Shown: positions 60,398 to 63,967 of the stretch, piece after piece | Layout of the letters: each line of letters starts with the position of its first letter | Numbering within the stretch: position 1 is the first letter of the stretch | Assembly (NCBI RefSeq): GCF_016811915.1 | Contig: NZ_CP069127.1 | Location: forward strand, 2,076,001 to 2,140,000 | From: Brevibacillus choshinensis | GTDB lineage: Bacteria; Bacillota; Bacilli; Brevibacillales; Brevibacillaceae | Length of the DNA: 64,000 bases | Direction of reading: 5' to 3' | Notes under the pieces: model-generated | What the model was told of the DNA's origin: nothing | The model's database searches: none | The model's input: only the letters and a program-made list of their open reading frames with translations | Made by a program: the position numbers and the translations under genes

Positions 60398-60428
60398 GTT
60401 TGTCAGTTGAAGTGTAGGAGGATTGCAT

Positions 60429-62429
60429 GTGCAAAAACTATTACGAACGATTTCGTGTACGCTGCTGGCAGCCACACTGATGACCCCCGGTTTTGCCTCC
60501 GCGGCTGGGGGCTTCATGCCTTATGGGGATATCAGCAAGCATTGGGCCAAAACATCGATTATTCGCGGTGTTCAGGCTGGGCTTTTCGCAGCAGGAAGCA
60601 AGGCGCCTCTATTCTATCCGAATCGCGATATGACGAGAGCTGAATTCGTAGCATTACTGGATCGCTTGTACAACGGCGGACAGTATCAGCTGTATCCGCT
60701 GACCTTTCTCTCGGAGCATGCCGAGTGGAATCGCGGCGAAGGCTTTGAGGAGCCTTATCTTCCTTACAAAGACGTGGATCGGCTGACGTGGATGTACGCG
60801 CCTACCTTGCGTGTTTCCTATATCATGGAGCGGTTGTATGGTCCGGATGCGATCCAGCAAGTGTTTCCTGGGGAGCAGATGAAGCCGAACCAGCCGATCA
60901 CCCATGAAGAAGCAGCCAAGCTCATGCAAATGTTCACGATGACGGGCGACAGCCAAAACGCGTGGGGAGAAGTGAGCGACTGGGGATGGATCGAGGGTGA
61001 GCGCACCGATTCTCTGAAACGGGGAGAAGCGGCCGTAGCAGCCGATCGTCTGATGACCTATCTGATGCAGGATACGATTCTGCCGCTGCTGGACTTTGAT
61101 GGTTCGAAGTTTCCGATGGTTCCAGAGATTCAGGAGCTTTTTCCGCTTTTTGTGACGTATACCGATTCCAAGACGGCAGATGAAGAAACCTACGTCAATG
61201 CCGTGGAAGCCATTCGAAATCATGAAGATACGGATGAGACGTACGCTGCGCTAAGCAAACTGGCTGGAGGTTCTTTTTCCAATCAGATTGGCGTCCATTT
61301 TTATTTGAGCTGGAATCCTACCACGCCGTTGACGGACAATCTGGATGAAGCTTTTCGTGCGATCGATGCCTACTTCCAGGATAAGATCATCTTGCCGGAT
61401 ACTTTGCGTCTGTTGAGTGCAAATGTGTATGACATTGCTCTGCAATTAGGTGCATCCGATACGAGAGAGTACGACAAGGTATTGACCCGCCTTGGCGACT
61501 ATGAGAAAAAGCTGAAGCAGGACACAAAAGAGTGGGAATCGCTGTCGATTTATTTGGGAGCGCTGGAGATCAAGGCTGGGCACACGGACAAGGCGCTGGA
61601 GCGATACGGCCAATTCGCATCCAAGCATCCGGAAGCATTGCTCAACTCCGCTTACTATTTGGTGCAGGAAGGACGTACGCAGGAAGCCGAGGCTCTCATT
61701 GCCGCGCAAAAGCCGAAAGCATCGGATGAGCGCATGGTTCAGCTCGTCAAGCTGCTCGGACATGAGATGACATCCATCAAGGATCAATCCTCCATCGCAA
61801 CGGATTTGGCGTATACCTTGAACCATCTGGATCGAGCCTCGTCCTATCAAGTGAAAGGAGAGGCGTTCCTGAGCGGCTTCTCGTTTACCTACACGCAGGA
61901 CGTGGATGGGCAAAGAAAGGCGAGCCGCACTTCTGGTTTTTATCAATCTCCGCAAAAGCTGGTTTCAGACAAGCTGGAGACATATACGGACGGACAGAAA
62001 AAAATTCAGTACACGTACGATACCAATAGACAAGCCTGGGACAAGCATCCTACCGATACGCTTGATTTTGTGCATGAATGGGTTGGTTCCCAGAGCATCC
62101 GGGATCGTCTCGCCAATCTCCACGCCCGCTACTACAAGCAATCATTTGGTCGCTACGACATTATTACGGAGTGGATTCCCGGATCTGCGCTTGAGGAAAA
62201 GGCGAAGAGCGTCACCCTTGGGCGCGGAAAGATTAAGAACGTTCCTCTCTATATGAATAAATACTACATTGACCGTACGAGCGACGAGCTGGTCATGCAT
62301 GTTTGGCGCTATGAGGAGATCTACGATAGTAAGGAGTATGTCGCATATTCCGGCACGGATCATTACAACCTGGCAGCAAAAGTGAAAGTGTTCATCCCAG
62401 ATGAAGTTCGGAAAGAGGTGACCCCATGA
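60429..62429 (+). CDS. Secreted SLH-domain protein
   Basis: A 666-residue exported protein. The signal peptide runs to about AASA near residue 26. Up to three S-layer-homology repeats follow: FMPYGDISKHWAKTSI with FYPNRDMTRAEFVALLDRL, then YKDVD with FPGEQMKPNQPITHEEAAKL, and a degenerate third to about residue 205. SLH domains bind pyruvylated wall polymers. The middle (about 310-455) is helical and TPR-like (LGALEIKAGHTDKALERYGQ), and the C-terminal part is beta-rich. The GTG at 60429 has TAGGAGG seven bases upstream. Its end overlaps the S41 protease start, so they probably act together at the cell surface. Confidence 0.85.
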   Translation: MQKLLRTISCTLLAATLMTPGFASAAGGFMPYGDISKHWAKTSIIRGVQAGLFAAGSKAPLFYPNRDMTRAEFVALLDRLYNGGQYQLYPLTFLSEHAEWNRGEGFEEPYLPYKDVDRLTWMYAPTLRVSYIMERLYGPDAIQQVFPGEQMKPNQPITHEEAAKLMQMFTMTGDSQNAWGEVSDWGWIEGERTDSLKRGEAAVAADRLMTYLMQDTILPLLDFDGSKFPMVPEIQELFPLFVTYTDSKTADEETYVNAVEAIRNHEDTDETYAALSKLAGGSFSNQIGVHFYLSWNPTTPLTDNLDEAFRAIDAYFQDKIILPDTLRLLSANVYDIALQLGASDTREYDKVLTRLGDYEKKLKQDTKEWESLSIYLGALEIKAGHTDKALERYGQFASKHPEALLNSAYYLVQEGRTQEAEALIAAQKPKASDERMVQLVKLLGHEMTSIKDQSSIATDLAYTLNHLDRASSYQVKGEAFLSGFSFTYTQDVDGQRKASRTSGFYQSPQKLVSDKLETYTDGQKKIQYTYDTNRQAWDKHPTDTLDFVHEWVGSQSIRDRLANLHARYYKQSFGRYDIITEWIPGSALEEKAKSVTLGRGKIKNVPLYMNKYYIDRTSDELVMHVWRYEEIYDSKEYVAYSGTDHYNLAAKVKVFIPDEVRKEVTP

Positions 62430-63922
62430 AACGGATGAGTCAATGGGCCTTAGCTGCTTTGCTACTCACGACAGCTATTCCCGTACAGGCAGCGGATCGA
62501 CCTTACTTGGAAACCGAAGAAGTTTTTTCGCACGTCATGGAGAGTCATTTGAGCAAGCCGGCAGCACAGCAGCTGGTAAAGGGAGCTCTGCAAGGCATCA
62601 GCGAGCAAGCCGGTAAAAAGCAGCATCTGAATCTGACCGTCTCTCCAGAAGATGACACGCTGGGTGAGCTCGAGGAGCGCATGGCAGAATGGCAGACAAA
62701 GGGAAAATGGGACGATTTGACCATCAATACATGGGCGATCGACGGGATGCTGTCGACGCTCAATGATCCGCACAGCGTGTTCTTTACGTCGGATGAGCTG
62801 CGACTGTTTCAATCGGATGTGGAGAACCAGTTTGTCGGCTTTGGCTTCCGCATGCGCATGCAAAACAACGAGCTGATCCTGAGGGAGATCGTACCTGGCT
62901 CCCCGGCTGCTGCTACCTCTCTCAAGCGAGGCGATCAGTTGCTGAAGATCGGTGACATTTCCTTGGTTGGCAAGAGCTTTGAGGAAGCCTACGCATATCT
63001 GAAAGGATCGGAGGGCACCGAGGCCGTTCTCACGGCATATCGACCGTCCGAGAAGCGCGAGTTTCAAGTGAAGCTGAAACGGGCCATGCTTCAGCTGCCG
63101 GAAGCGGAAGGGCAACTGTTTTCCAAAGATTCCATTGGTTATATAAGTCTCGAAACATTCGGATCTGATGGAGCTATCCAAATGAGGGACAAGCTAGCGG
63201 AATTCGCTCGTACCGGACAGCACTTGAAAGGCCTGGTACTCGATTTGCGGGACAATGGGGGAGGGTATCTCTCGACTGCTCGGGATATCGCCAGCTTGTT
63301 TATGGAGGAAGGCTTGCTCATGTACACGACCAATCGGAACGGAGTGGAAGTGGAGACATGGGTGAGAAACGGAAATGATATCGGTGTTCCTGTGCGGATT
63401 TTGGTTAATGGCGGTACGGCTTCTGCGTCCGAGCTTTTGTCTGGCGCACTGCGGGATCATGGCATCGCCAAATTGGTCGGCACCAAAACATACGGGAAAG
63501 GCAGTGCACAGCAAGTCATTCCCTTATCCGATGGGGATGCGCTGAAGCTGACGCTGAACGAGTACTTTACTCCCAAGCATACGGTTGTAAACCATGTGGG
63601 ATTGACTCCGGACATGGTGGTCGAGGATTACGCCGCACAGGTAGTAGAAGCCCTGCACTCGCTGGGCGTCAAGAATTGGGAGCTGAGCGATGAAAATGGC
63701 GATACGGAAATCAACGGAGTTCCGTTTCCGACAGTCGACCCGCTCTTCAAGCAAGGAACGGATGGCCTGCAGATAAAAGCAGCAGTTATGCAGCATCTGC
63801 TGGGAGATTCGTCTGTTGGGGAAAAAGACTACGTGGCAATTGCTCCGTACCTGAAGAGTCATCCTTCTTTGCAGCTTCAAAGTAAAAATGGTGTCCATAC
63901 CCTTACTTATCACCAGATATAA
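62426..63922 (+). CDS. S41 family C-terminal processing protease
   Basis: A 498-residue exported serine protease. Signal peptide to about QAA near residue 22, a helical N-terminal part, a PDZ domain (about 130-215; GSPAAATSLKRGDQLLKIGD), then the S41 domain with LVLDLRDNGGGYLS, the catalytic Ser in GGTASASELLSGALRDHG, and the Lys in GTKTYGKGSAQQVIPL. ATGA overlap with the SLH gene. No membrane anchor is obvious beyond the signal peptide, so anchoring through the partner is plausible. Confidence 0.92.
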   Translation: MKRMSQWALAALLLTTAIPVQAADRPYLETEEVFSHVMESHLSKPAAQQLVKGALQGISEQAGKKQHLNLTVSPEDDTLGELEERMAEWQTKGKWDDLTINTWAIDGMLSTLNDPHSVFFTSDELRLFQSDVENQFVGFGFRMRMQNNELILREIVPGSPAAATSLKRGDQLLKIGDISLVGKSFEEAYAYLKGSEGTEAVLTAYRPSEKREFQVKLKRAMLQLPEAEGQLFSKDSIGYISLETFGSDGAIQMRDKLAEFARTGQHLKGLVLDLRDNGGGYLSTARDIASLFMEEGLLMYTTNRNGVEVETWVRNGNDIGVPVRILVNGGTASASELLSGALRDHGIAKLVGTKTYGKGSAQQVIPLSDGDALKLTLNEYFTPKHTVVNHVGLTPDMVVEDYAAQVVEALHSLGVKNWELSDENGDTEINGVPFPTVDPLFKQGTDGLQIKAAVMQHLLGDSSVGEKDYVAIAPYLKSHPSLQLQSKNGVHTLTYHQI

Positions 63923-63935
63923 TTCGCTCTTCATG

Positions 63936-63967
63936 CCCATCTACTCTTGCAGAGGGGCTTTTTCTTT
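63936..63967 (+). terminator. Intrinsic terminator after the S41 gene
   Basis: GCCCATCT / AGAGGGGC (one mismatch) with T-run. Confidence 0.7.

Follow-up and report, generated by a model that had tools for sequence, protein, structure and literature searches.

How might a putatively exported protease with no recognisable anchor of its own come to be held at the cell surface, and how would it find its substrates? The question is raised by two adjacent plus-strand genes in a stretch of Brevibacillus choshinensis DNA that we call the window (64,000 nucleotides, positions 2076001-2140000 of a source genome that forms a single contig of 6,166,741 bases). The first gene encodes a protein with SLH domains (P0001, window positions 60429-62429) and the second an S41 family C-terminal processing protease, or CTP (P0002, 62426-63922), the two overlapping by 4 nt. 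The original prediction, made from the sequence alone, had suggested a surface complex in which the SLH protein tethers the protease or delivers substrate to it. Our analysis points to a surface proteolytic unit in which the SLH protein would act as a wall tether and as a substrate adaptor or activator, a proposal that we consider about evenly balanced between right and wrong. The conserved overlapping pair, the wall-binding module found on one partner only, the adaptor-like helical middle of that partner and the CtpA/CtpB-like character of the protease all speak for the earlier suggestion, but it left out a third, LppX/LolA-like module of the SLH protein.

An overlapping gene pair kept across Brevibacillaceae

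The two genes lie at exactly the coordinates originally given, and an ATGA is common to both. The elements of the pair are as follows.

60416..60422, + strand: AGGAGGA, Shine-Dalgarno-like, SLH gene (from the sequence; a similar motif precedes the start in most relatives, by eye)
60429..62429, + strand: P0001, predicted exported protein with SLH, TPR-like and LppX-like parts, 666 aa, GTG start (Pfam, model, family-wide near full-length matches)
62412..62420, + strand: AAAGAGGTG, Shine-Dalgarno-like, protease gene, within the SLH gene (from the sequence; by eye, most related loci have a purine-rich motif resembling AAAGGGG or AAAGGAG)
62426..62429, + strand: ATGA stop/start overlap
62426..63922, + strand: P0002, S41 C-terminal processing protease, 498 aa (Pfam, TIGR00225, model)
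63935..63958, + strand: possible intrinsic terminator with one stem mismatch and a T run after it (by eye; not among the sites of the terminator scan)

The GTG at 60429 starts the SLH gene 6 bases from the AGGAGGA motif; an alternative in-frame TTG at 60423 makes a poorer overlap with that motif. Scans for promoters (2 sites, 4.0 expected) and terminators (9 sites, 5.6 expected) were uninformative.

All 39 Brevibacillaceae genomes searched, from seven genera, hold a near full-length match to P0001, and in all 39 the best P0002 match adjoins it on the same strand. The original prediction had named separation of the genes in most relatives as an outcome that would count against it; they are apart in 0/39. 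The ATGA overlap is in frame with the protease, with no intervening stop, at 32 of the 39 loci, the junction being read at one locus per genome and the in-frame ATGA being counted at L043 and L046, where the automated start pick lay later. Since identity falls to 34% for P0001 and 47% for P0002 at the far end of the family, the arrangement is old within it. The seven named loci with a P0001 relative are all from Brevibacillus, with B. centrosporus first at 84%, and it is from these that the 39 genomes are taken to represent Brevibacillaceae.

Three modules in the SLH protein

The signal peptides of both proteins were called by eye, without a program. In P0001 the signal peptide is followed by three modules.

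60429..60503, + strand: putative signal peptide, residues 1-25, ending in ASA (by eye; predicted local distance difference test score, pLDDT, <50 for residues 1-27)
60516..61079, + strand: SLH trimer, residues 30-217, with TRAE in SLH1, a degenerate SLH2 site and KRGE in SLH3 (Pfam SLH, 3pyw match, motif counts)
61155..61796, + strand: TPR-like alpha solenoid, residues 243-456 (sub-threshold TPR matches, model)
61836..62393, + strand: LppX/LprG/LolA-type C-terminal domain, residues 470-655 (structural matches of the model)

The structural model (pLDDT 87.8) draws on an alignment of 28 sequences, namely those of the 39 orthologues that were left once near-identical rows had been removed. The SLH repeats already recognised from the sequence are borne out: the Pfam SLH family has one match above its cut-off (35.7 against 20.8 bits, residues 31-73), it is matched at E <= 0.1 by 28/28 aligned orthologues, and the model matches whole SLH trimers (3pyw: Z 14.9, root-mean-square deviation [rmsd] 2.9, 154 aligned residues). 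The R and E of SLH1 and the R of SLH3 are kept in 28/28 rows, the R of SLH2 in 10/28. P0001 thus shares the trimer fold of SLH-anchored wall proteins such as Sap and SpaA (Z 13.7 to 14.9) but differs from them in its degenerate second site and in a remainder whose domain content is not that of an S-layer array protein. By eye, no lipobox is found at the cleavage site of the signal peptide.

The middle of the modelled protein is an all-helical solenoid whose best TPR match reaches Z 12.8 (rmsd 5.1, 197 aligned), and TPR_19 is matched at E <= 0.1 by 16 of the 28 aligned orthologues. A profile of this part gave 13 PDB matches at E <= 1, for the most part to designed PPR/TPR proteins and to ORF 131; these matches are short and repeat-like, and we made no use of them.

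In the model, the last third of the chain folds into a domain of its own, LppX/LolA-like in structure, which the original prediction had missed. Residues 452-655 match LppX (2byo) with Z 13.3, rmsd 3.4 and 167 aligned residues, and LprF, LprG, a LolA-like protein and ependymin-type proteins follow at Z 10.9 to 11.6. Foldseek with the whole model returned LolA, LprG and RseB rows at E 0.0018 to 0.057, those of RseB being at 0.0035 and weaker; only two rows had E <= 0.001, both of them SLH domains. The fold that this domain has in common with LppX, LprG, LolA and RseB is in P0001 fused to an SLH trimer and a solenoid. It differs from them in sequence, its profile having 0 PDB sequence matches at E <= 5 and its only Pfam hit being a weak match to DUF6612 in 1 of the 28 members (E 0.037). 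A search of the source genome gave one sub-threshold DUF6612 match elsewhere, and membership of that family is not claimed.

An intact S41 protease

The protease has the following parts.

62426..62491, + strand: putative signal peptide, residues 1-22 (by eye; pLDDT <50 for residues 1-23)
62492..62641, + strand: helical extension at the N-terminus, residues 23-72, a candidate site for docking (the model has helices at 28-40 and 47-66)
62825..63097, + strand: PDZ domain, residues 134-224 (Pfam PDZ_2, PDZ_6, PDZ)
63098..63625, + strand: S41 core, residues 225-400 (Pfam Peptidase_S41)
63422..63424, + strand: catalytic Ser333 (invariant in 27/27 aligned orthologues)
63497..63499, + strand: catalytic Lys358 (likewise 27/27)
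63509..63511, + strand: catalytic Gln362 (likewise 27/27)
63677..63919, + strand: C-terminal domain, residues 418-498 (model)

That P0002 is a C-terminal processing protease, as originally called, is confirmed by matches above cut-off to Peptidase_S41 (155.1 against 24 bits) and TIGR00225 (250.6 against 218.6 bits) and by three Pfam PDZ models above cut-off, PDZ being matched at E <= 0.1 in 27/27 orthologues (27 of the 39, near-identical rows removed). The active site is intact, and the spacing of S333, K358 and Q362 equals that of S300, K325 and Q329 named in the title of a Helicobacter pylori CtpA entry. The model (pLDDT 86.7, 27 sequences) is closest in structure to that same enzyme (Z 31.5, rmsd 3.8, 334 aligned), followed by Pseudomonas aeruginosa CtpA of the LbcA complex (8sxg: Z 30.7, rmsd 4.2, 343 aligned) and by CtpB (Z 30.6, rmsd 5.6, 340 aligned), with Prc more distant at Z about 22. 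Judged by the ends of the aligned ranges only, alignments start at residues 71-78 with CtpA and CtpB and at 22-25 with Prc, and residues 23-72 fall inside the range only for Prc, the D1 protease and more distant entries. Among the matches listed, S41 proteins from outside the family match the P0002 profile from position 50 or later.

The source genome has two S41 genes. Pfam finds no anchor domain in the P0002 sequence at E <= 1, in agreement with the original prediction, whereas the other protease, which is CtpB-like, carries PG_binding_1 and has an M23 gene and ftsEX-like genes as neighbours (ftsE and ftsX recognised by eye). Bacillus subtilis CtpB and this second protease share the S41 core, the PDZ domain and the catalytic residues with P0002; the second protease differs from it in sequence (33% identity over 103-401), in having its own PG_binding_1 and in its M23 and ftsEX-like neighbours.

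For the C-terminal domain of P0002, no plausible Pfam match was found among the 27 members. Cu_amine_oxidN1 had seemed plausible by eye and was rejected: hhalign gave a probability of 2.3 percent against eight such domains from the same genome, the 27 members do not match the family, and P0002 is absent from the 37 matches at E <= 1 in the genome. Those 37 matches to the copper amine oxidase N-terminal domain include some below cut-off and some within one frame.

Gene neighbourhood

The pair stays intact while its upstream neighbours change. Among 27 related loci (two genomes being represented twice), an acyl-CoA dehydrogenase (ACAD) gene lies directly before trmK in 24; it is about 2.7 kb off in L045, and no match was found in L046 and L047. 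Fourteen loci were read for the gap between nif3 and the SLH gene: 11, all from sister genera (L045-L050, L052, L053, L055, L056, L057), hold a gene of about 165 codons there, one has a remnant (L051, by eye) and two, from Brevibacillus (L040, L043), have neither. Two of these proteins of about 165 codons were tested and both match the zinc ribbon family PF02591, the first exceeding its cut-off and the second falling short of it. At the remaining loci read from Brevibacillus the gap is 31 to 131 bases, too short for the zinc-ribbon gene. Ribosomal or transfer RNA genes were found within the locus around the pair in all five loci scanned (L003, L047, L048, L050, L057).

Covariation of evolutionary rates

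Rate covariation was calculated on 21 of 25 loci, with L045 (removed by a filter), L046 and L047 (no ACAD match) and L055 (S41 frame not closable) left out. With five local genes, SLH-S41 had a partial r of 0.785, first of the 10 pairs, and 0 of 2000 permutations were as high; the permutation test applies to this five-gene set. Once FtsE, FtsX, M23 and CtpB had been added as controls, SLH-S41 stood third of 36 pairs with a partial r of 0.538. This covariation is supportive but modest: it fits a link between the two proteins and is no proof of one.

Relatives outside the family

We searched a class sample of 398 genomes, 362 of them from outside the family, and a phylum sample of 398 genomes; the samples overlap. 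In the samples searched, the SLH protein and the protease both form, by sequence similarity, clades confined to Brevibacillaceae. A P0001 profile without the SLH part had no full-length match in the 362 non-family class genomes or in the 398 phylum genomes. P0001 matches came from 41 class genomes, 36 of the family and five with short, weak matches (20 to 28 bits), and in the phylum sample from the source genome and one weak match of 21 bits. With the S41 profile, scores in the 36 family genomes ran from 678 to 862 bits, against 377 bits for the best protein from outside among the matches listed. For 20 of the best outside S41 loci, the genomes gave no match to the P0001 profile in the class search. 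Neighbours of these 20 loci were called with a crude open reading frame caller, which produced spurious frames in GC-rich loci, and nine neighbours, five of them downstream, were scanned with Pfam.

Discussion

We propose that the SLH protein would be exported and bound through its SLH trimer to the pyruvylated secondary cell-wall polymer, and that its TPR-like solenoid and LppX/LolA-like domain would hold the exported, otherwise unanchored S41 protease, its substrates, or both. Wall enzymes, lipoproteins and other hydrophobic molecules are candidate clients, and the tethered protease would act at the wall. Wall binding is suggested by the SLH fold together with a gene for CsaB, a pyruvyl transferase, in the genome (289.3 bits against a cut-off of 213.1). 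In other bacteria CsaB makes the SLH ligand, the pyruvylated wall polymer. The C-terminal domain of P0001 may, as a guess, bind a hydrophobic ligand.

By analogy, such a unit would most likely work in the manner of NlpI-Prc or LbcA-CtpA, although P0001 has no recognisable sequence relation to NlpI or LbcA. Reports on these systems describe an LbcA helix wedged between the N-terminal helices of the CtpA dimer, with LbcA activating the enzyme (PMC11021448), and NlpI TPR2 bound to a part of Prc containing the N-terminal helix (PMC5686067). Because both known adaptors dock there and the P0002 clade has extra N-terminal helices, our guess is that the SLH protein could dock on the N-terminal helices of P0002. 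The pair resembles LbcA-CtpA of Pseudomonas aeruginosa in combining a CTP of the CtpA/CtpB fold with a partner rich in TPR-like helices. LbcA, however, is described as a lipoprotein of the outer membrane that has 11 TPRs and, at its N-terminus, an adaptor domain (PMC11021448; PMC8764530), whereas in P0001 the solenoid is shorter and is joined by SLH domains and an LppX-like domain. Likewise, the TPR protein NlpI of Escherichia coli is anchored and guides a soluble PDZ protease to its substrate (PMC5686067), although NlpI is a lipoprotein with four TPRs and Prc is structurally farther from P0002. Where LbcA and NlpI have a lipoprotein anchor, P0001 has an SLH domain.

In its most specific form, our proposal is that P0001 is a family-specific, three-module, wall-anchored adaptor that would tether, activate and feed a CTP, having arisen separately from NlpI-Prc and LbcA-CtpA in a Gram-positive lineage; we put this somewhat short of an even chance. 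On this same reading, and with the same slightly less than even confidence, the adaptor would combine a wall anchor with a ligand-binding module, neither of which is described for NlpI-Prc or LbcA-CtpA. The CTP adaptors described in the literature examined, NlpI and LbcA, are outer-membrane lipoproteins of Gram-negative bacteria; if our proposal is true, control of CTP proteolysis at the wall by an adaptor would have evolved anew in bacteria that have no outer membrane, and the pair would offer a simple two-gene system for how such proteases find their substrates. Searches of the open-licence literature showed no title or abstract start on an SLH-S41 pair, although this does not prove that none exists. 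Since Brevibacillus serves as a host for protein secretion, a surface protease unit would also be of practical interest.

Several observations weigh against the proposed unit. The in-frame ATGA is absent, as read, from 7 of the 39 loci, six of them with spacings of -14 to +55 and one (L055) with an S41 frame that could not be closed. The TPR-like middle of the original prediction holds as an all-helical solenoid in the model but not in Pfam, where all TPR matches of P0001 fall below cut-off, and its Z of 12.8 is within the range that helical repeats may reach without kinship. The PDB sequences matched at E <= 1 include no LbcA or NlpI chain (P0001 alone has 0 matches, the profile without SLH 13), so we do not assign P0001 to either family; both are also absent among the structural matches listed for the P0001 model, which leaves room for the same fold. 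The closest structural match of P0002 is the H. pylori enzyme, reported to be adaptor-independent (PMC12749690), so that having this fold need not imply an adaptor. The CsaB cut-off is passed by 4 of 14 control genomes too, and the gene is thus no strong sign. In the five-gene test three other pairs also reached 0/2000 and SLH-TrmK 1/2000, and in the 36-pair set CtpB-M23 (0.771) and Nif3-ACAD (0.640) stood above SLH-S41, with SLH-FtsE (0.535) close to it. Finally, trmK and nif3 precede the pair in 27/27 related loci. Adjacency is therefore weaker evidence than it looks and may reflect one ancestral arrangement.

Taken to its limit, that last point would make the adjacency a neutral relic of conserved gene order. 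The constancy of trmK and nif3 agrees with this, as do the RNA genes in all five loci scanned, but genera differ in the gene that separates nif3 from the SLH gene, and in three of the 27 loci ACAD has moved or is missing while the pair is undisturbed; with the overlap kept at 32 of 39 loci as well, we judge a neutral relic very improbable. The same upstream synteny would also suit operon mates that never touch, both serving wall upkeep and co-translated for dosage, the SLH protein having a job of its own (for example holding lipid or polymer) and the protease remaining free. A closest structural match that reportedly needs no adaptor fits such an arrangement. It accounts less well for the frequent in-frame ATGA, for a pair kept where upstream neighbours differ and for a covariation of SLH with S41 that exceeds that of 33 of the 35 other pairs, and on balance we think it unlikely, if well short of negligible.

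The LppX/LolA-like domain admits a different relationship, in which the SLH protein would be a substrate or a regulated inhibitor: a LolA/RseB-like domain might sense a ligand and gate cleavage, or the protease might trim the SLH protein. RseB chains do occur among the Foldseek rows, and translational coupling would match the dose of the two partners. However, the RseB rows are weaker than LppX, and the last residues of P0001 orthologues vary by eye (VTP, VAP, VSR, VGR, AAR, ATR and others), unlike one conserved PDZ-type tail. We regard this relationship as decidedly unlikely.

Further observations

The closest protease relatives outside the family are at L072 and L073, where the S41 gene follows one for a rhomboid-like membrane protein (by eye); at both loci, neither same-strand neighbour of the S41 gene resembles an SLH protein (by eye). 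In at least three of the 20 outside loci (L088, L090, L091) the gene immediately downstream of S41 encodes a subtilase that carries three SLH domains. The subtilase of L085 is without SLH, and PPC domains exceed their cut-off in L085, L088 and L091. The S41 and SLH-subtilase combination of other Bacilli is a different, second kind of S41-SLH pairing.

The strongest covariation of the 36 pairs links the CtpB-like protease of the source genome to the neighbouring M23/PcsB-type hydrolase (L004:5929-8856), and would fit the action of that protease on the hydrolase.

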